33,689 bases of DNA, from assembly GCA_002717365.1 (NCBI GenBank), contig PBDJ01000007.1, positions 4,469 to 38,157 on the forward strand, read 5' to 3'. The stretch comes from Acidimicrobiaceae bacterium. GTDB taxonomy: Bacteria; Actinomycetota; Acidimicrobiia; Acidimicrobiales; MedAcidi-G1. Shown here one piece after another: positions 23,461 to 32,412 of the stretch. Under the pieces are notes generated by a model. The model worked only from the letters and a program-made list of their open reading frames with translations. It had not been told where the DNA came from and did no database searches. Within the stretch, counting starts at the first letter, position 1. The number at the start of each line of letters is the position of its first letter. The translations under genes and the position numbers were made by a program.

Positions 23461-24786
23461 GTGAGCGAGCGTTCGCTGCACCCGGTAGAGGTGGCCAACC
23501 GGGTGATCGATTCCGGTCAGGCCGAGGCTCCACACAACCGGGTTACCCACCAACTCTCGGTGGTTGACGACGACGTAGCCGTGATCGAGTCGTTCTCCCA
23601 CTGCTGGGCTCTGCGTACCGACGAGGGGCTGATTTGTTTCGACGCAGGTGGGATTAAGCATGGAACGGAGGTGGTGGACGAGCTCCGACGCTGGAGCGAT
23701 CAGCCGGTCACCCACCTCGTTTACACCCACGGTCACCTTGATCACGTCGGCGGAAGTGGTGCCTTTGTGGCCGACGCGGAGGCCCGGGGTCACATCCGAC
23801 CCCGCTTCCTGGCCCACGAGGCCGTTCCAGCCCGCTTTGAGCGATATCGGGTCACCAACGGATGGAACCTGGTGATCAACCGCCGCCAGTTCGGAGGGAT
23901 TCGTAATCGGCAAGACCTGGGGATCGGCGACGACGGACCCGCCTTCCTGCCTGACCACGTCGCTGAGCCAGACGAGGTTTTCCGGGGCCAGATGTCGTTC
24001 ACTGTCGGGGACCGGACCATTGAGCTGCGACATGCCCGGGGAGAAACCGACGACCACGCCTGGGGCTGGGAAGCCGAACAGCGAACTGTTTACAGCGGCG
24101 ACTTCACCTCCTGGGTGTTTCCAAACGCCGGCAACCCGCAGAAGGTGCAGCGCTATCCGATCGAGTGGGCGGCCGCTATGCGCGACATGCTGGCTGCCGG
24201 TGCCGAGCGGGTTTATCCGGCCCACGGCCTGCCCATCGTGGGTCGGAACCGGGTGGAACAGGTTCTGGGTGATATCGCCGAGGCGCTCGAACACCTGACC
24301 GGCCGCACCCTCGAGCTGATGAATGAGGGCGCCACCATCGACGAGATCATCCACGAAGTCCGGGTCCCCGACCACCTACAGGATCGTCCGTGGCTGGCCC
24401 CTCAGTACGACGAACCCGAGTTTGTGGTCCGCAACGTCTACCGCCAGTTCGGGGGCTGGTGGGACGGCAACGCGGCGAACCTGAAGCCGGCCCGCGAAGC
24501 GGCTCTGGCTGCCGAACTGGCCTCTCTGGCCGGTTCGGTGGAGGTACTGGCCGAGCGGGCGGTAGCTCTCGCCGAGTCGGGAGACTTGAGGCTGGCCTGT
24601 CACCTGGTTGAGATGGCGGTAACTGCCGAGCCGACCCATGAGGGGGCCCACCGGGCCAGAGCCGACGTCTACTGGCGTCGACGGGCTGCCGAGCGGTCCC
24701 TCATGTCGAAAGGAATCTACGCCGCGGCGGCCCGCGAGTCGGAGACTGTTCTTGGTGAGGAGACGGTCGGCGACTCCCTGGGTTAG
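23461..24786 (+). CDS. MBL-fold metallo-hydrolase, alkylsulfatase-like
   Basis: 441 residues from a GTG preceded by a GACGAGG ribosome binding site. The metal motif THGHLDHVGG gives HxHxDH at 90-95. Further metal ligands are probable in the segments RHARGETDDHAW, YSGDFTSW and YPAHGLPIVG. After the catalytic domain, YRQFGGWWDGNAANLKP (about 330-346) and the helices to about 410 match the dimerisation domain of SDS/alkylsulfatases, where a conserved W-D-G-N-P/A motif occurs. A separate C-terminal SCP2-like domain, usual in full alkylsulfatases (~600+ residues), is missing. The protein may hydrolyse alkyl sulfate esters or a related ester. It overlaps the menC stop by 4 bp in convergent orientation. 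Confidence 0.87.
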   Translation: MSERSLHPVEVANRVIDSGQAEAPHNRVTHQLSVVDDDVAVIESFSHCWALRTDEGLICFDAGGIKHGTEVVDELRRWSDQPVTHLVYTHGHLDHVGGSGAFVADAEARGHIRPRFLAHEAVPARFERYRVTNGWNLVINRRQFGGIRNRQDLGIGDDGPAFLPDHVAEPDEVFRGQMSFTVGDRTIELRHARGETDDHAWGWEAEQRTVYSGDFTSWVFPNAGNPQKVQRYPIEWAAAMRDMLAAGAERVYPAHGLPIVGRNRVEQVLGDIAEALEHLTGRTLELMNEGATIDEIIHEVRVPDHLQDRPWLAPQYDEPEFVVRNVYRQFGGWWDGNAANLKPAREAALAAELASLAGSVEVLAERAVALAESGDLRLACHLVEMAVTAEPTHEGAHRARADVYWRRRAAERSLMSKGIYAAAARESETVLGEETVGDSLG

Positions 24787-25802
24787 TCGACGACGGGTCC
24801 GACCCCGTCCGTCCCTAGGTACAGCGTTCCACCGACCGGGCGACACGGCGTCGAGATGTCGTTGGCTAGGAAGTCGGCGGTGGCCAAGCCGGGTAGTGGG
24901 TCGAGTGCCCCGATGGCCGACGCCAAGTGAGCGGCGGCCCGGATACCGACCGACCCCTCCAGTAGGGAAGTGACCACCACGCCCAGGCCAGCATTGCGGG
25001 CCCGGGCGGCCGCCTCGGCGGACGCTGATGGGCCGCCGAGGGCTGACGGCTTGAGGACGACTAGGTCGGCGGCGCCTAGGGACACAGCTCGGGCCACCTC
25101 CTCGGGACTACTAGCTGACTCGTCCACGGCGATGGGGATGGGGGAAACAGAACGGAGAACGGCTAGGGCCTCTAGACCGGCCACCGGCTCCTCGACGAAC
25201 TCTGGGCCGTAGATGGACAGGCGTTCCAGACCCCTGAGAGCTTCTGAGGCTGACCAGGCCCCATTGGCGTCCAGGCGAATCCGGACACCAGTTCCGACGC
25301 GTTCTCGAACGGCAGCCACCCGGTCAAGGTCAGCATCGATCCCACCCACTCCTACCTTGACCTTGACCGTGGTATGGCCCGACGCCGCCGCCTCGGCGGC
25401 CGAAGCGGCCACGTCGTCTGGGGTGGTGCCCGTGACCAGGGCGGCTACAGCGACGCGGTCAGGGCTGTCGGGGGCCAGCAGGCGGTGGACCGACGTCCCA
25501 GCGACTTGTGCCGCGAGGTCCAGGAGCGCCGAGTCCACGGCAGCTCGGGCAGTAGGTGACCCAGCGGGGAGGCTTCCGTTGCTGTCGTCCGAAGCCCACT
25601 GGTGGAGGGCGGCCTCAGCTTCGTCCACCGTGTCCGAGGTGAATCCGGCCAGTGGGGCGGCTTCACCGAGACCGATGTGACCGTCCTCGTCCTCCAGGGA
25701 CAGAAGCACTGTCCAGCGGTCGTCGACCGGGCCGTGGGCGGTGGAGATCGGGGAGCGGTAGCGGAGCAGCCGGCGTTCGATCCGGACCGTACAGATCTTC
25801 AT
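24783..25802 (-). CDS. menC: o-Succinylbenzoate synthase
   Basis: 339 residues from the ATG at 25802 (a TTG codon at 25805 is unlikely to be used). An enolase-superfamily enzyme that dehydrates SHCHC to o-succinylbenzoate in menaquinone synthesis. Catalytic features are TTVKVKVG (Lys pair at 147/149), metal ligands Asp178 (RLDANGAW), Glu204 (FVEEP) and Asp227 (AVDES), and the opposite Lys251 (VLKPSALGG). The N-terminal capping domain begins IERRLLRYRSPISTAHG. The group also includes N-acylamino-acid racemases, but the position after menF, menD and menH supports MenC. It is the last gene of the operon; its start overlaps the menH stop by one base (TGATG). Confidence 0.93.
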   Translation of the reverse strand: MKICTVRIERRLLRYRSPISTAHGPVDDRWTVLLSLEDEDGHIGLGEAAPLAGFTSDTVDEAEAALHQWASDDSNGSLPAGSPTARAAVDSALLDLAAQVAGTSVHRLLAPDSPDRVAVAALVTGTTPDDVAASAAEAAASGHTTVKVKVGVGGIDADLDRVAAVRERVGTGVRIRLDANGAWSASEALRGLERLSIYGPEFVEEPVAGLEALAVLRSVSPIPIAVDESASSPEEVARAVSLGAADLVVLKPSALGGPSASAEAAARARNAGLGVVVTSLLEGSVGIRAAAHLASAIGALDPLPGLATADFLANDISTPCRPVGGTLYLGTDGVGPVVD

Positions 25803-26629
25803 CAACGTCGTTCCCGCTCATCGTCCAACTGGGACAGGAACTCCCGGACGGCATCGGTCGTCCGATCCGGGTTCTCGAGGTGGGTGGCGTGACCCGCCCC
25901 GGGGATCACGGAGATAGTCGAGCGGGTCAGGCCAGCGGCCATCCTCATTGCCACGGTCCGGTAGCGCGGGTCCTCCTCACCGACGACCAGCAGGACAGGT
26001 ACCCGGAGACCAGCTAGATCATGCCAGTAGGACGGCTGTCGCCCAGCTCCAGCGCCGCGGAGGCTGCCGGCCAAGCCATCGGGATGGTTGTCCAGTCGCT
26101 GGGCCCGACCGGCGGCCAATGCGTCAGGACCGAGGCGTTCCTGGGAGGCGAAGATCGGACTAGACATCCAATGGTCCACGAACCACTCAAGACCCCGCTC
26201 CAGGAGGTCATCGGCCAAGTCGTCATCGGATCGGGCCCGGGCCGACCGCTCGGCAGCATTTGACAGGCCGGCCGAGGACCCGATCAGGGTTAGAGAGGCA
26301 ACATGCCCGGGGTGGCGGACGGCCAGCCCCACGGCCAGCCGTCCACCCATGGAGTAGCCGATCACGTCGGCCGGTCGGAGTCGGTGGCGGTCGAGTAGGG
26401 AGGCCAAGGCGTCCACCGTGTGCTCGAAACCGAAGAGCTGGGGGTCGTCGGGGACACCGGTCCGGCCGTGGCCCGGAAGGTCGACGACGGCCACCTGGCG
26501 GAGATCAGTTAGGCGACGGCCTAGCGGCCAGATGGTCACTGCCCCCCCGGTGAAACCATGGAGCAACAGGAGGGGAGGACCGTCACCGTCCATCTCGACG
26601 TGGAGATCGGAGGAACCGTTGGCAGCCAC
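25802..26629 (-). CDS. menH: SHCHC synthase (2-succinyl-6-hydroxy-2,4-cyclohexadiene-1-carboxylate synthase)
   Basis: 275 residues from the GTG at 26629, one base after the menD stop; an ATG at 26707 lies inside menD and would add a non-homologous extension. The alpha/beta hydrolase fold has LLLLHGFTGGAVTIWPL, VVDLPGHGRTG, the nucleophile elbow GYSMGGRLAVGLAVRHP, LTLIGSSAGL, VVGEEDPRY and a catalytic His in GAGHATHLENP. HGFTG and GYSMGGRLA are typical of MenH. The enzyme removes pyruvate from SEPHCHC, the MenD product. Without the context it could be called a generic hydrolase; with menD and menC as neighbours the assignment is strong. Confidence 0.92.
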   Translation of the reverse strand: MAANGSSDLHVEMDGDGPPLLLLHGFTGGAVTIWPLGRRLTDLRQVAVVDLPGHGRTGVPDDPQLFGFEHTVDALASLLDRHRLRPADVIGYSMGGRLAVGLAVRHPGHVASLTLIGSSAGLSNAAERSARARSDDDLADDLLERGLEWFVDHWMSSPIFASQERLGPDALAAGRAQRLDNHPDGLAGSLRGAGAGRQPSYWHDLAGLRVPVLLVVGEEDPRYRTVAMRMAAGLTRSTISVIPGAGHATHLENPDRTTDAVREFLSQLDDERERR

Positions 26630-26630
26630 G

Positions 26631-28400
26631 TCAGATCTCGTAGTCGGCGAGAGCTCGATCCACGGCGATGGCCGCCGCCCGGTGGAGGCCCACGTTGGTC
26701 GAAGCATCGACGACGACGTGCACCAGGTGCAGACCCCTGCTCCCGACGGTCGCCGAAAGAACCTGGTCCAGACCGGTCCGGTCGGTTGGACGGTGGAGGT
26801 GGCCGCCGGCCAGGGCTGCTGCGTGTCCGAGGTCTAGGCCGTGCGGGGTGTGGAATAGGCGGTGGTGGTCGACGTGCGACTCGTCGGCGATAGGCAGGAA
26901 CCGGAAGATCCCGCCGCCGTCGTTGTCGACCAACACCACGGTTAGGTCCAGGTCGAGCCGCCCTGCGGCCGTGAGTCCTCCGACGTCGTGGAGGAAGGCC
27001 AAGTCGCCGGTGAACAAGACGGTGGGCGCCGAGGACCCGGCGGCTACGCCGAGGGCGGTCGACACCTGACCGTCGATCCCGCTGGCCCCCCGGTTGGCCA
27101 GGATTCGTAGCGGCCGATCACTGGTGGGCAGGAAGGCGTCCAGGTCACGGAGAGGCATCGAGTTGGCTACCACCAGGTTTGCGCCGGAAGGCAAGGCTCG
27201 GTCCAGAGCAATTGTCACGGCGGGTTCATCGAACGGGGCCCTGTCCACCAGGTCGGTCACCACTGCCGCAGCCCGTGCGTTAGCGCCAACCCAAGCGGCC
27301 GTCCACGGCCCGGACCGGTCAGTAGATGGCAGGTGGGTGGTTAGCAGAGCAGCCAATTGTCCCGGCTCGACGGCCACCCGGTCGGTAACACGGAGAGCGG
27401 CGTCAGGGAATCGGTCCAGATGATCGACAGCTACGACCCGATCGGCACCTACCCGATCCAGCCATAGCCGGTAGCCCTTGCTGGTTGGCATAGCACCAAA
27501 CTGGACCACCACGTCGGGGCGGTGCCGGTCGGACCACGAGGAGCGCATCAAGTGGTCGCCAGTAGCCAGGATCGGAGTCGCAGCAGTGTGGGGTCCCCGC
27601 CGGAGTCCGGAGGCTGGGTCGGCCAGAATTGGCCACCCGGTCCGGCGGGCCAATTCAGCCAAGGCGCCGACGCCGGTGGTGTCGAGGTCCAGAGCCCCAG
27701 CCACCATCAGCCCTCGTTCGGTCCCCAGAAGCCCAAGGAGAGGGCCAGGGTCGGAGGAAACCGCGCCGGGGGGTAGTGGGAGCAGACCGACGGGCGGCGG
27801 GTCGTCGGCTGAAGGCTCCAGCGGCTCACGGAGCGGGACGTTGACGTGGACCGGGCCGGGGATCGGCCGGGTGGCCCGCACTACAGCCTGATGAGCGAGT
27901 GAGGCCGCTTCACCGGCCGGTTGGGTTCCAGCCACTGCTGATGTGGTGGCCCACCGAGCGTGGTTGCCATATAGGCCCTGCTGATCGACGGTTTGTGGGG
28001 CACCCCGGTTCTGGAGTTCCGGAGGCCGGTCGCTGGTCAGGACGAGGAGCGGAACACCCGAGTGAAAGGCCTCGACCACTGCAGGCATGTAGTTGGCAGC
28101 TGCTGTGCCCGAGGTGCACAGCATGGCTACCGGCCGGCTGGTGGCTCGGGCCAGCCCCAAAGCGAAGAACCCCCCTGACCGTTCGTCCAGATGCATCGAC
28201 ACCTCTAGGCCATCTGTGCGGTCGGCGGCCACCGTCATCGGGGTGGATCGGGATCCCGGGGAGGCGGCCACGTGGGCTATGCCGCAGGCCGCCAACTGGG
28301 CGAAGAACGCTCGACACCAGGCCTGGGTGTCGTTCGGGTCGGCAACGGGTAGGGGGGAGACACCCATGGGGGACTCCCCGAGGTGGGAACTGACGTTCAC
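26631..28400 (-). CDS. menD: SEPHCHC synthase (ThDP-dependent)
   Basis: 589 residues from the GTG at 28400, which overlaps the menF stop as GTGA; an internal ATG at 28367 (MGVSPLPV) is the alternative. It joins 2-oxoglutarate and isochorismate. Key features are CGIAHVAASPGSRSTPMTVA (substrate-binding SPGSRS), MHLDERSGGFFALGLA with the ThDP-activating Glu, AMLCTSGTAAANYMPAVVEA, TSDRPPELQNRGAPQTVDQ, and a C-terminal ThDP-binding segment with GDLAFLHDVGGL and DNDGGGIFRFLP. Length matches MenD (about 550-590). It is the largest gene of the MerR-menF-menD-menH-menC operon. Confidence 0.95.
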   Translation of the reverse strand: MNVSSHLGESPMGVSPLPVADPNDTQAWCRAFFAQLAACGIAHVAASPGSRSTPMTVAADRTDGLEVSMHLDERSGGFFALGLARATSRPVAMLCTSGTAAANYMPAVVEAFHSGVPLLVLTSDRPPELQNRGAPQTVDQQGLYGNHARWATTSAVAGTQPAGEAASLAHQAVVRATRPIPGPVHVNVPLREPLEPSADDPPPVGLLPLPPGAVSSDPGPLLGLLGTERGLMVAGALDLDTTGVGALAELARRTGWPILADPASGLRRGPHTAATPILATGDHLMRSSWSDRHRPDVVVQFGAMPTSKGYRLWLDRVGADRVVAVDHLDRFPDAALRVTDRVAVEPGQLAALLTTHLPSTDRSGPWTAAWVGANARAAAVVTDLVDRAPFDEPAVTIALDRALPSGANLVVANSMPLRDLDAFLPTSDRPLRILANRGASGIDGQVSTALGVAAGSSAPTVLFTGDLAFLHDVGGLTAAGRLDLDLTVVLVDNDGGGIFRFLPIADESHVDHHRLFHTPHGLDLGHAAALAGGHLHRPTDRTGLDQVLSATVGSRGLHLVHVVVDASTNVGLHRAAAIAVDRALADYEI

Positions 28401-29710
28401 CGGAGGACCTTTGAGGTGGTCACTACAGGTCCGAGAAGAGCTCGCAGTTTCACATCGGTTTCTAAGAGCTCGCGGGCTGGGTCGGACCCGGCCACCACGC
28501 CGGCACCGGCGTACAGGGTGGTATTGGTCGCAGTGAGTAGGGCAGAGCGCAGAGCAACCCGGAACTCGCCGTCGCCCGATCCGTCCAGCCAGCCCACCGG
28601 GCTAGCGAACCACCCCCGGTCCATGCCCTCGTGAACAGAGCGAAGCTCGGTCGATCGTCCACTCGGGTATCCGGCTACAGCCGGGGTCGGGTGGAGGGCG
28701 CCGACGAGGTCCAGTAGCCCCACCGCTGTTGGGAGGTCGGCGTCGATAGGGGTGTGGAGGTGCTGGATCCCATGGAGCTTTAGGAGACTTGGTTCTCTCG
28801 GATGGCGATCGGTGACTCCTAGTCCAGCCAACGCGCGATTGACTGCGTCTACGACCACTGTGTGCTCATAGCGCTCCTTGGGACTGGTGAGAAGGCCCTG
28901 GCCTAGAGCGGCGTCGATGGCCGGGTCGGAGTCTCGGGGAGCAGAGCCAGCCAGGGCTGCCGTTTTGAGCCTTCCGGCGTGGACGGCGGCTAGGCGTTCT
29001 GGAGTGGCGGCCACGAACGACGTGTTGCCAACTGTGATACCGAGAGTGGCACACGCCGGGTAGGTGGCCCGGAGGGTGGCCAGGAGGCGGGCCACGTCGG
29101 GTCGAAGGTCGACGCGCAAGGACCGGCAGGGCACGGCCTTATGCAGCTCTCCGCGCCTGATGGCGTCCAGGGCTAGATGGACAAGGTTGCAGTAGTGATG
29201 TTGAGCGTCCTCGTCGGCCCAGGTGGCAGGGTCAACGTCGGCCGGGGTTTCAGGGTGAGGCGCGGCTGTCACCGGGGTAGGTCGATCAGCGCCGTCAATG
29301 CGAGTCACCCAGGTTCGGCCATCCCGACGCAGTACCTGGACGGCCGGAAGGACGAGGCGCCCGTTACCGAAGGGGGCCCATGGCCCTGATGGGGCAGTGT
29401 CGTCGAAGGCGAATCCGGCGGCCACCCGGGGCTGGGGGGCGTCGGCTGGCGCTTCGACTTCGAGGTCACCCAGGAGGCCGGCGGCCTGGAGTGCTGCGTC
29501 ATCAAACCGGGACGGGCCGTCCAGCGACACCACGTCGGTCGTCCCAAGGCCCACCCAAGAAACGTCATCCTCGGGAGCCTCCCAGAACCACCGCTCCTCA
29601 TCGGCTGGGGCGGTTGCCAGCCAGGCCAGGGGGTCGGTAGCCGGACCGGACCGGACCTCGGTGGTCGTTGCCGGGAGGCCGGGGCAAAGGCCGGGGTCGG
29701 TCAGGGCCAT
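28397..29710 (-). CDS. menF: Isochorismate synthase
   Basis: 437 residues from the ATG at 29710, inside the last 10 bases of the MerR gene. The chorismate-binding domain is in the C-terminal half: AIRRGELHKAVPCRSLRVDL, FVAATPERLAAVHAGRLKTAALAGSA-type block (shown in part), SPKERYEHTVVVDAVNRAL, HLHTPIDADL, LHPTPAVAGYP, GWLDGSGDGEFRVALRSAL and YAGAGVVAGSDPARELLETD. These match MenF/EntC/DhbC enzymes, which convert chorismate to isochorismate without breaking C-C bonds. Anthranilate and aminodeoxychorismate synthases share the fold, but LHPTPAVAG and the men neighbours support isochorismate synthase. It is the first enzyme of the pathway and the first enzyme gene of the operon. Confidence 0.94.
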   Translation of the reverse strand: MALTDPGLCPGLPATTTEVRSGPATDPLAWLATAPADEERWFWEAPEDDVSWVGLGTTDVVSLDGPSRFDDAALQAAGLLGDLEVEAPADAPQPRVAAGFAFDDTAPSGPWAPFGNGRLVLPAVQVLRRDGRTWVTRIDGADRPTPVTAAPHPETPADVDPATWADEDAQHHYCNLVHLALDAIRRGELHKAVPCRSLRVDLRPDVARLLATLRATYPACATLGITVGNTSFVAATPERLAAVHAGRLKTAALAGSAPRDSDPAIDAALGQGLLTSPKERYEHTVVVDAVNRALAGLGVTDRHPREPSLLKLHGIQHLHTPIDADLPTAVGLLDLVGALHPTPAVAGYPSGRSTELRSVHEGMDRGWFASPVGWLDGSGDGEFRVALRSALLTATNTTLYAGAGVVAGSDPARELLETDVKLRALLGPVVTTSKVLR

Positions 29711-30462
29711 CGACAGGTCACCTCGAGTTGAGAGGCGTCGGCGGCCATCAGAGCGTTGGCCAGGGTATGCCGCTCAGCGTCGGCTACCCGGTCCAGGGCC
29801 CGGTTCACGAGAGAGCGATGGAAGTGCTGGGCCACTAACCGGGTGACGGCAGGTAGGAGAGACCTGACTACCTCAACCAGGGCCTCGTCGGAGCCGTCGG
29901 TTCCGGACTTCACGTGATCCTCGAACAGGGTGATTGCCCGGTCGACCACTTCGCCAACGTTGGCGTTGTGGTCGGCGGCTAGTGCAACGAGCTCGTCGAG
30001 TGGCACCCCGGCGGCGCTGATGGCTAGTCCAGCCCGGACCATGGTCACCGCCCCCTCGTCGAAGAGGGGTCCGCCTTCGCCTTCGACCGGTTCCAGGATC
30101 CCGTTGTCACACAAGAGCGAGACCAGGCCCTCGGGAACCTCAGCCCGGTCAGCCACCTCCCGTCGGGTCAGGTTGGGGGAGCGGGTGGCGTTGGCGAGAC
30201 GGTCTAGGGCGTCGGATCGGGCCGATGCGTCGAGATCAGCGATCTGGGCCAGCGAGAAGCCTTCTTTGGCAAGTCGTCGGATCTCTGCCAAGCGGTTGAG
30301 ATGGGCATCCCGGTAAACAACTCGTCGGCCCCGGCGGACTGGCGGCTCAAGGAGGCCGAGACGCTGGTAGTAGCGGATGGTGTCAACCCCGATTCCGCTA
30401 GCCGCCGACAGACGGTCCACGGTAAGCAGGTCGTCGGTCACCGAACCAGGGATGAATTCCAC
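29701..30462 (-). CDS. MerR-family transcriptional regulator leading the men operon
   Basis: 253 residues from a GTG at 30462. The N-terminal MerR winged helix (about 12-82) reads LTVDRLSAASGIGVDTIRYYQRLGLLEPPVRRGRRVVY, here quoted in outline, with the typical IRYYQRLGLL and a Y-R-D wing. A second HTH-like block follows (about 96-130, TRREVADRAEVPEGLVSLLCDNGILEP), so the protein carries two DNA-binding-type modules. The C-terminal ~120 residues are helical with VRSLLPAVTRLVAQHFHRSL. No Cys cluster for metal sensing is visible; the ligand is unknown. The gene overlaps menF by 10 bp, so regulator and enzymes are probably co-translated. The promoter region carries nested inverted repeats, a probable autoregulatory operator. 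Confidence 0.88.
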   Translation of the reverse strand: MEFIPGSVTDDLLTVDRLSAASGIGVDTIRYYQRLGLLEPPVRRGRRVVYRDAHLNRLAEIRRLAKEGFSLAQIADLDASARSDALDRLANATRSPNLTRREVADRAEVPEGLVSLLCDNGILEPVEGEGGPLFDEGAVTMVRAGLAISAAGVPLDELVALAADHNANVGEVVDRAITLFEDHVKSGTDGSDEALVEVVRSLLPAVTRLVAQHFHRSLVNRALDRVADAERHTLANALMAADASQLEVTCRWP

Positions 30463-30468
30463 GATTCG

Positions 30469-30497
30469 ATTGTACGAGTAAACACTCTCAGTGTCGA
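30469..30497 (-). promoter_or_regulatory. Leaderless promoter of the MerR-men operon
   Basis: On the minus strand TCGACA (30492-30497) and TACAAT (30469-30474) are 17 bases apart. The GTG start at 30462 is 6 bases after TACAAT, where transcription would begin. This is the best -35/-10 pair I found in the window. An inverted repeat lies in its spacer and -35 box. Confidence 0.6.
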
Positions 30498-30505
30498 TGC
30501 TCGTA
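30473..30505. promoter_or_regulatory. Nested inverted repeats, putative MerR operator
   Basis: Inner repeat ACACT-CTC-AGTGT at 30482-30494 and outer repeat TACGAG (30473-30478) with CTCGTA (30500-30505) have nearly the same centre (30488/30489). A third, overlapping dyad GAGT-AAAC-ACTC spans 30476-30487. They cover the spacer and both boxes of the men promoter. MerR proteins bind dyads between -35 and -10. The same site could affect the divergent selenoprotein gene. Confidence 0.55.
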
Positions 30506-30562
30506 TTCTCAAAGATGTGGCTGGAACACGCTGTAGCCGCAGGACCGTGGCACGATGGCCCA

Positions 30563-31456
30563 GTGACCTCGACGCTGCCCGTGGACTACATCGCCCTTAC
30601 CCGGGCCCAGTACGACGCCCTGGGCTACCAGGCGTACCAGTGGGCCGAACGGCCCGACCCCCCGGCTTGGACTCCTATGCCCACCCTGGCCAGCGCTTCG
30701 GTGGTTCTCATCGGCTCGGGCGGGGCCTACCGCGAAGGCCAGGTGGCCTACCACTGGAAGGACGACACCGGAATCCGGCATATCCCCAGCGCCGAGCCAG
30801 CCACCGATATCCGGGTCACCCATTTTGCCTATGACCTAGAGCCGGCCCGCGAAGATCCCAACATCGTCTTCCCGGTAGACCGCCTCCGAGAACTGGTCGA
30901 CGAGGGTGTGATTGGAGGCCTAGCGCCCACCGCCCTGGGATGCATGGGCGGGATCTACTCGGTGCGCCGGGCCGAACAGGAACTGGCCCCGGCCATCGTG
31001 GACGAGGTGCTGGCCATGCGAGACGCCGGTCAAGCCGACGTGGCGCTGTTCGTCCCCGTCTGACCGGTGTGCCACCAGACCGTGGGTCTGGTCGCACGGG
31101 CGCTGGAGGCCGCCGGCATGCCGACCCTTTGCCTGACCGCCGCGTACAGCATCACGGCGGCAGCCAACCCTCCCCGAGCAGCTTTCGTCGACGTGCCGCT
31201 GGGCAACACAGTGGGGCGCCCCCACGACCCGGAGTTCCAACGCGACGTACTGCGGCGAGCCCTGGCCGCTGCCCAGACCATGGACGTGCCGGGCACCATC
31301 ACGGATCTGGGCGTGTCGTGGGACGGAGACGGATCCTGGAAGCGGTTTGCCTCGTCGACCGGAGTCGGGAGTGGTGATGGCGAGGACGACCGCCGCCAGC
31401 GGTTAGACACCCCCCAATACCAGTACGAGGCCGATCGCCTAGCCGCCGGAGGCTGA
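30563..31456 (+). CDS. Selenoprotein of the GrdB/PrdB (glycine/proline reductase) family, UGA read as selenocysteine
   Basis: 297 residues if the TGA at 31061-31063 is read as selenocysteine (Sec167). The reading frame is the same on both sides: VALFVPV-U-PVCHQTVGLVARALE, a UxxC redox pair (Sec167, Cys170). The GTG start gives VTSTLPVDYIALTRAQYDAL, the family's opening; an ATG at 30491 lies in the operator region. Family features continue on both sides of the TGA: GSGGAYREGQVAYHWKDD and IRVTHFAYDLEPAREDPNIVFPVDRLREL before it, and AAFVDVPLGNTVGRPHDPEFQ, LAAAQTMDVPGTITDLGVSW after it. GrdB and PrdB are selenoenzyme subunits of reductive amino-acid or betaine fermentation; this shorter relative has unknown substrate. 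No grdA/C/D/E or prdA gene is nearby. A SECIS-like hairpin follows the TGA. An esterase gene starts 5 bases after its stop. Confidence 0.85.
31061..31063 (+). other. In-frame TGA, selenocysteine codon
   Basis: Codons 31058 GTC, 31061 TGA, 31064 CCG, 31067 GTG, 31070 TGC. The TGA interrupts a frame that is homologous to one family on both sides and places Sec two residues before a Cys pair partner (U-P-V-C). A normal stop would truncate the protein in the middle of its domain. Confidence 0.82.
31069..31097 (+). promoter_or_regulatory. Bacterial SECIS-like hairpin
   Basis: Stem: GTGC (31069-31072) with GCAC (31094-31097), a C-C mismatch (31073/31093), A-T (31074/31092), then CCAGACC (31075-31081) with GGTCTGG (31085-31091). 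The apical loop is GTG (31082-31084). Eighteen bases separate the TGA from the loop, whose first base is G. Bacterial SECIS elements sit in the coding sequence just after UGA with a small loop starting with G/GU, so position, loop and stability all fit. Found by eye; no folding program was run. Confidence 0.78.
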
Positions 31457-31461
31457 CCGAG

Positions 31462-32412
31462 GTGACTGTCGCCGACGACCTCCGCCCATTCCTGGACCTC
31501 ATCCAGAGCACCCGTTCTCCCATAGCCGACACCACGCCAGAATCCCTGCGGGCCACGTACTCGGCTCTCGGCCTTCCCGGAGGCGTTGAAATGGCTGTTG
31601 TGGAGGACCGCGCCATCCCCGGACCGGACGGTGACGACCTGCCCGTGCGTGTCTATAGGCCGTCAGCCGACGCCGAGCGCCCGCCGGTGGTCGTCTACCT
31701 GCACGGTGGCGGGTGGACTATCGGCGACCTAGACACCCACGACGAACCGTGCCGGGCACTGGCGGCCGGTACGGGTGCTGTGGTGGCAGCCGTTGGCTAC
31801 CGCTTGGCCCCAGAGCATCCGTTCCCGGCGGCTGTTGATGACGCCTACACCGCGGTTTGCTACGTGTCCGAGCACGCTGACGACCTCGGGGTGGACGCCA
31901 GTCGACTGGTGGTGGCCGGCGACAGTGCCGGAGGCAACCTCTCAGCGGTGGTTTCGCTTATGGCCCGCGACCGCTCTGGTCCGGCCATCGCCTTCCAGTT
32001 CCTGATCTACCCGGCGGTCGACTTTGACCTGACGTCGGGCCGGTGGACGTCGCTAGAGGAGAACGCCACGGGATATTTCCTTCACTTGGAGACGATGCGA
32101 TGGTTTGCCGATCACTACGGCGGAGCTGATCGTCTAGTCGCCGAGCCGTATGCCGCACCGATCCGAGCCGCCGACCACTCCGGACTGCCACCGGCACACG
32201 TAATCGTGGCCGGCTACGATCCGCTGCGTGACGAAGGCTTGGCCTATGCCGAGATCCTGCGGGAGGCTGGGGTTCCGGTCACGGTGGCCAACCACGAACA
32301 GCAAATCCACGGCTACTGGCACTTCGTCCCCCACCTGGAGTCCAGCCGTCGGGCCCGGGAGGCTGATGTCGGCGTGTTGGCCGCCGCCATTGATGCCCTA
32401 CCCGTGGTCTGA
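31462..32412 (+). CDS. Alpha/beta hydrolase, hormone-sensitive-lipase-like esterase
   Basis: 316 residues from a GTG preceded by GACCGAG. The HSL signature VVVYLHGGGWTIGD (HGGG at 81-84) forms the oxyanion hole, and GDSAGGN holds the nucleophile Ser155. The acid is the Asp of AGYDPLRDEG and the His is in QIHGYWHF. RLAPEHPFPAAVDDAY is a further family hallmark. These enzymes hydrolyse short-chain acyl esters; actinobacterial members often act on lipids or xenobiotic esters. There is no signal peptide, so it is cytoplasmic. It begins 5 bases after the selenoprotein stop, so the two are probably one transcript, though a functional link is not evident. Confidence 0.92.
   Translation: MTVADDLRPFLDLIQSTRSPIADTTPESLRATYSALGLPGGVEMAVVEDRAIPGPDGDDLPVRVYRPSADAERPPVVVYLHGGGWTIGDLDTHDEPCRALAAGTGAVVAAVGYRLAPEHPFPAAVDDAYTAVCYVSEHADDLGVDASRLVVAGDSAGGNLSAVVSLMARDRSGPAIAFQFLIYPAVDFDLTSGRWTSLEENATGYFLHLETMRWFADHYGGADRLVAEPYAAPIRAADHSGLPPAHVIVAGYDPLRDEGLAYAEILREAGVPVTVANHEQQIHGYWHFVPHLESSRRAREADVGVLAAAIDALPVV

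Follow-up and report, generated by a model that had tools for sequence, protein, structure and literature searches.

A PrdB-like gene with an internal UGA codon

The window, by which we mean the whole stretch of 33,689 nucleotides that was analysed, carries a PrdB-like gene at positions 30563-31456 of the plus strand that encodes 297 amino acids plus a stop when its single internal TGA (31061-31063) is read as selenocysteine. The translated frame runs VPV-U-PVC-HQT around this codon, which places the putative selenocysteine at residue 167 and its UxxC partner, a cysteine encoded at 31070-31072, at residue 170; a second TGA at 31454-31456 ends the frame. The GTG at 30563 was preferred as the start because close homologues, which are also of similar length, start near the same position. 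The first-pass annotation had described a single frame with a lone TGA at 31061, a UPVC motif and several family-typical peptides, and our translation agreed with it on each of these points. Under the ordinary genetic code the gene is split into two ORFs, 30491-31063 and 31067-31456.

Five bases after the PrdB-like gene lies an alpha/beta hydrolase gene (Abhydrolase_3 by Pfam; 31462-32412, plus strand), possibly co-transcribed with it. Divergent to it is a MerR-type regulator gene (also assigned with Pfam; 29701-30462, minus strand), whose end runs 10 bases into the start of menF, the isochorismate synthase gene. The minus strand from 24783 to 30462 holds this MerR gene followed by menF, menD, menH and menC, the men names being taken from the sequences. 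Every gene in this series overlaps its successor, and the same order was found in the family. From about 6 kb before the PrdB-like gene to 2 kb after it, the neighbours were these men genes, the MerR gene, the alpha/beta hydrolase, a phosphatase and an acyl-CoA dehydrogenase. Our sample of relatives comprised 100 genomes, 48 of which (G000-G047) make up the window's family. Across 20 family loci, menF was present at 19, the MerR gene upstream at 19 (at the exception, L098, the fetched stretch stops at the contig end), the alpha/beta hydrolase downstream at 18 and a low-molecular-weight phosphatase at all 20; a CoA-transferase family III gene stood on the opposite strand at 12 of them and is not found in the window. 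We weighed the MerR gene as a clue to function but set it aside: it shares bases with menF, and it did not turn up next to homologues from outside the family.

The best family match was to the NCBIfam PrdB model (TIGR04483), which covered residues 33-249, across the TGA, with an E-value of 1.7e-39 and 135.7 bits, each half of the protein alone matching its own part of the model. This score is under half the curated cut-off of 300 bits; eight relatives, including cysteine forms and the second paralogue described below, scored 76-154 bits and a GrdB-type protein 67. The Pfam GRDB model (PF07355) exceeded its gathering score (29.6 against 22 bits) over 66 residues, corresponding to profile positions 267-331 of 347, and the GrdB model TIGR01917 gave 36.2 bits (E 3.2e-9) over positions 266-422 of 431, below its cut-off of 602.2 bits. 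The kinship with the GrdB/PrdB family proposed in the first-pass annotation therefore stands, with PrdB, not GrdB, as the nearest relative.

Decoding of the UGA codon

A PrdB-like match was found in 62 of the 100 relatives, a count that includes the second paralogue and weak GrdB matches. Within the family, 44 of 48 genomes had a match spanning the codon with 62-100% identity (41 near full length, and partial ones in G046, G033 and G023), and each of these contained exactly one internal stop, a TGA. Among the other four genomes, G036 had a piece ending before the codon together with the second paralogue, G038 had the second paralogue only, and G041 and G047 had no PrdB-like match. The position of the TGA within the UPVC motif was read in the 30 family matches that were fetched, and the codon column was TGA in all 27 of those free of N. 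Homologues therefore read on through this position and do not end at it. When the window gene was paired with 11 relatives, 10 pairs gave dN/dS values of 0.10-0.21 upstream of the codon and 0.06-0.28 over the 85 codons downstream, the eleventh being too diverged to yield a value. A sequencing error was excluded, because 44 genomes would not share one internal TGA by error. We also rejected the reading of UGA as tryptophan under another code, since homologues carry cysteine here and neighbouring genes, for example that at 31462-32412, terminate in TGA.

Cysteine occupied the column of residue 167 in 15 homologues that were examined. Three of these (L049, L108 and L109) came from loci fetched without asking for cysteine, and the remaining 12, all of the 12 proteobacterial loci, have it by construction, the scan pattern having spelled cysteine at that place. 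The cysteine forms were not limited to genomes without selB, which was above cut-off in 9 of 14 genomes with such a form. On a tree of 69 rows (83 were available, of which 12 near-copies and two UxxU forms were left out; two rows were a GrdB outgroup), the selenocysteine or cysteine state required at least five changes. In a wider sample of the phylum, 75 of 396 genomes had a PrdB-like match, and most of the places listed had one TGA; six had no stop (G454 and G468 were examined among these), eight had two TGA, and at five a TAA or TAG was present as well, so broken genes may be among the more distant matches.

The machinery for selenocysteine insertion was found in the same genome. A profile search identified selB with 273 bits (L047:2056-3774), and selA adjoins it (L047:3779-5104), the name of the latter resting on its sequence and its place next to selB. 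The tRNA-Sec, with anticodon TCA, scored 67.5 bits and was also called by ARAGORN, and selD (L067, contig 45; 357.5 bits) has an in-frame TGA of its own, reading GUGCK. The first-pass annotation had held that this organism uses selenium and had pointed to these four genes as the place to look; all four were present. Among the relatives, 57 of the 62 genomes with a PrdB-like match had selB above cut-off, against 16 of the 38 without one (p 8e-8); restricting the comparison to genomes of at least 90% completeness and no more than 5% contamination gave 35 of 35 and 10 of 29 (p 2e-9). These p-values are too small because the genomes are related. The five match-bearing genomes without selB above cut-off were 66-85% complete, and the match in them may instead be GrdB or the second paralogue.

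Immediately after the UGA lies a SECIS-like element (31064-31100, plus strand), recognised from covariation and folding, in which 31074-31081 would pair with 31085-31092 around a GUG loop (31082-31084). This arrangement agrees with the bacterial SECIS pattern given in a passage of PMC1088965, namely a hairpin directly after the UGA with a small apical loop holding a G. In an alignment of 48 sequences (44 distinct, with one GrdB row left out), 25 cells had changed on both sides of the hairpin, where shuffles averaged 4.1 (sd 1.7) and none of 500 reached that count, with the caveat that related sequences can exceed shuffles; controls with slid partners gave 0-6 two-sided changes. The number of pairs with two-sided change, four, was not beyond shuffles, 59 of 500 being as high. 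The UGA and the next 37 nt, folded as 40 nt, gave -22.3 kcal/mol (z -2.74) with the hairpin at the tip, and the 31-nt stretch with the hairpin was hardly below shuffles (z -1.06). On the other side, a 54-nt fold of the window sequence lacked the hairpin, and RNAalifold, run on 36 sequences, picked a competing upstream stem instead. That upstream stem was dropped, its covariation not being above shuffles. An Rfam search of 401 bases gave no SECIS hit and two matches, both under their gathering scores.

These results constitute strong comparative evidence that the UGA at 31061 would be decoded as selenocysteine by SelB and tRNA-Sec, and the two short frames are a single gene whose internal UGA most likely encodes selenocysteine, as the first-pass annotation had argued; coding is conserved on both sides of the codon. 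That the UGA is instead a real stop, leaving two separate genes or a disrupted one, is barely conceivable and was ruled out as a working model: ordinary gene calling does yield two ORFs, but purifying selection flanks the codon on both sides, the single TGA recurs together with the SECIS-like hairpin, and selA, selB, tRNA-Sec and selD make up a complete machinery in the genome.

Variant forms and predicted structure

In an alignment of 28 of the available rows, the UxxC motif was nearly invariant, with Cys170 in at least 90% of rows, and P104, G118, T188, P212, G214 and G218 were conserved away from the motif. The partner cysteine is not universal: the motif is UxxD in L053, with aspartate at this place, and UxxU in L111 and L115. 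The PrdB-like genes of the latter two loci (near 6317 in L111 and 6372 in L115) have two TGA three apart, reading UPIU, and are followed by a nitrilase-type gene (PF00795) in L111 and by a gene of the ornithine cyclodeaminase family in L115.

Many family genomes, among them those of L052, L057, L061, L064 and L066, carry a second, longer UGA-containing PrdB paralogue of about 350-430 amino acids as read, with the motif UPLC-TRTV and a domain followed by about 100 additional residues. Ten long rows of this paralogue formed one clade on the tree, and it was not found in the window's own genome (77.8% complete). Outside the family, the proteins of L048, L054, L062, L063 and L065 have a C-terminal cysteine pair (CRAC, CMIC, CLVC or CGC) that is absent from the window protein; judging by its sequence, this pair could provide an internal site for resolution or electron relay.

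An AlphaFold2 model built with 28 sequences had a pLDDT of 94.7 and a pTM of 0.93 and predicted an alpha/beta fold in which residue 167, modelled as cysteine, sits between a strand (160-164) and a helix (168-183). Foldseek found no solved structure matching the predicted model at E<=0.001, so the surroundings of the selenocysteine are so far uninformative on catalysis, and a sequence search for solved relatives returned none that was useful.

Function of the PrdB-like protein and its relation to known reductases

The D-proline and glycine reductases employ a pyruvoyl subunit, and PMC10838667 cites the work on its processing. PrdA (TIGR04480) gave a weak match in 6 of the 100 genomes, was above cut-off in none, and was not found in the window's own genome. 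The pyruvoyl subunit model PF09338 likewise had no match in that genome; it matched in 7 of 100 relatives, including two of the 48 in the family (G011 and G012), on contigs other than those of the PrdB-like gene. The absence from the own genome is weak evidence because that genome is 77.8% complete, so it is the family counts that carry weight, many relatives also being incomplete. In the two family genomes, the PF09338 gene encodes a full-length pyruvoyl-type reductase subunit (L071 1456-2811 in G011, and G012:C24). No prd genes, such as those for PrdC, PrdD or a racemase, were among the neighbours from about 6 kb before the gene to 2 kb after it. As far as our searches reached, with no PrdA and no PF09338 in the genome and no prd neighbours, the first-pass annotation was right to call this a stand-alone relative of the reductases. 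The host also has cytochrome c oxidase subunit I (CtaD; 696 bits, above cut-off) and should therefore be able to respire oxygen. Its genome size and gene content suggest, tentatively, that it may be a planktonic marine actinobacterium from the MedAcidi-G1 family, the genera of which are described as aerobic heterotrophs (PMC10205998). Since PrdA was not found in a host equipped for oxygen respiration, 'proline reductase', as such proteins are usually labelled, is probably a misnomer for this one.

The reading we favour, and consider somewhat better than evenly supported, is that of a stand-alone PrdB-like selenol reductase of 297 residues, with Sec167 and a resolving Cys170, that acts without PrdA. 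The protein would correspond to the selenocysteine-bearing subunit of D-proline reductase, working without the pyruvoyl subunit PrdA, and the UGA at 31061 would be read by SelB and tRNA-Sec with the help of the SECIS-like hairpin downstream. Sec167, predicted to lie at the N-terminal end of a helix that follows a beta strand, would act as a selenolate nucleophile and attack an electrophilic carbon, or another atom bearing a leaving group, of a small substrate. Cys170 would then resolve the Se-substrate intermediate, releasing the reduced product, and thioredoxin or a low-molecular-weight thiol may reduce the resulting Se-S bond. Because there is no pyruvoyl group to activate an amine, an already activated substrate, either a CoA-linked compound or one whose leaving group is a halogen or a quaternary amine, would be likelier than D-proline.

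The neighbours of homologues were also examined. No window neighbour recurred consistently beside homologues outside the family, and there and around the second paralogue the mix differed each time from lineage to lineage; this survey used 30 proteins hand-picked from 191 candidate ORFs, and three of the 30 had no Pfam family; a clustering of all ORFs around the homologues was swamped by antisense ORFs. The second paralogue had an acyl-CoA dehydrogenase match beside it in L052, L057 and L066; further such matches lay close to L049 and L119, and L065 had a MenH-like match nearby. CoA-transferase family III was the one recurrent theme, and we regard it as a weak hint of the substrate. It follows the cysteine form on the same strand, 269-320 bases past the matched stretch, at all six loci of a betaproteobacterial clade (L072, L073, L074, L077, L078 and L080), follows the matched stretch in L108 at a distance of 6 bases, and is also near L049 and L083. 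These positions, together with the 12 of 20 family loci noted above, the acyl-CoA dehydrogenase beside the L052 paralogue, a carboxyl transferase by L049 and the presence of just 10 CoA-transferase III genes in the 1.87 Mb of the window's own genome, would suit an alternative in which the protein performs a step in the catabolism of an organic acid as its CoA ester, coupled to CoA-transferase III. We think this rather unlikely, given that the transferase is absent beside the window gene and was not found beside the selenocysteine forms of other families or beside five cysteine forms (L075, L076, L079, L081 and L082), and that the arrangement in each clade counts as one inherited event.

To a similar degree we doubt that the protein is a general thiol or selenol oxidoreductase, using its UxxC in the manner of thioredoxin-type selenoproteins in defence against disulphides, peroxides or electrophiles. 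The existence of UxxC, UxxU and CxxC forms and the divergent MerR regulator at 19 of 20 family loci would fit such a role, and many selenoproteins with UxxC are thiol oxidoreductases according to a passage of PMC1088965. The predicted alpha/beta fold is larger, however, and no thioredoxin was among the 50 Foldseek matches listed; the conserved P104, G118, T188, P212, G214 and G218, far from the motif, suggest a bound substrate, and the MerR gene, overlapping menF, may serve that operon.

It is improbable that we are dealing with a genuine D-proline reductase subunit whose pyruvoyl partner is unrecognised or non-homologous. The PrdB HMM match is near full length, the name is used in the passages available from PMC1088965 and PMC2398784, and the gene next to the PrdB-like gene of L115 belongs to the ornithine cyclodeaminase family, a class tied to proline; but L115 is a distant UxxU form, and the score of 135.7 bits against a cut-off of 300 sits with relatives at 76-154, a GrdB-type protein reaching 67. 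PrdA above cut-off in none of 100 genomes, PF09338 in two of 48 family genomes and on other contigs, and nearest neighbours that are no prd genes all tell against it.

The stand-alone selenol reductase that we favour belongs to a kind of selenoprotein that is already known. 'PrdB' is the third most abundant known selenoprotein family of a Sargasso Sea set, with 42 genes, and D-proline reduction is assigned to it in that 2005 paper (PMC1088965); the GOS data held 235 selenocysteine and 110 cysteine PrdB sequences, the former out of 3,506 selenoprotein sequences (PMC2398784); a later survey put 'proline reductase' at 6.4% of marine selenoprotein genes (PMC9402790); and the PrdB family, with a UxxC motif, is entered as D-proline reductase in a 2026 review (PMC13188914). 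Ordinary gene calling splits the window gene in two, as the first-pass annotation had expected of standard callers. The family as a whole has nevertheless been noticed, 'PrdB' having been counted with the abundant selenoproteins of the sea from 2005 on (PMC1088965, PMC2398784). The open-access papers searched gave no account of a stand-alone PrdB-like group without PrdA, and what we add is evidence against the D-proline reductase reading for this group. The marine 'PrdB' shares with our protein the family name, the UxxC motif and its marine abundance and is probably the same group; the passages of PMC1088965 and PMC2398784 contain nothing on the host genome, the operon context or an analysis of partners. 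It is possible, though on balance doubtful, that the abundant marine selenoprotein called 'proline reductase' forms a class of its own, made up of oxygen-tolerant reductases with a single subunit, in selenol or cysteine form, which use no pyruvoyl cofactor and cleave a bond between carbon and a heteroatom in a substrate that is already activated, possibly a CoA ester, and that marine metagenome surveys reporting D-proline reduction have been misread. If the marine proteins labelled PrdB do belong to the stand-alone group, a major marine use of selenium has the wrong name and its function is unassigned, and the natural cysteine forms and the confident structure model make the question of function directly testable.

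Among characterised systems, the window protein shares with the D-proline reductase subunit PrdB (TIGR04483) similarity over the whole domain and a selenocysteine in UxxC, as the latter is described in the part seen of PMC13188914. It differs in scoring less than half the cut-off, in extending about 50 residues past the C-terminal end of the model, and in having neither a detected PrdA nor prd neighbours in a host with cytochrome oxidase. GrdB pairs with the pyruvoyl protein GrdE. With GrdB, GrdF and GrdH the window protein has a homologous C-terminal half (TIGR01917, E 3.2e-9) and selenocysteine in common, but it is without the N-terminal half of the 431-position GrdB model, and no GrdE-type gene was found in its own genome. 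FarB of monofluoroacetate dehalorespiration offers a further parallel, being a GrdB relative with selenocysteine that has been assigned to a non-amine leaving group (C-F), and it differs from the window protein in having a GrdE-like partner and a radical-SAM gene and in belonging to an anaerobe, according to the passages available from PMC10838667.
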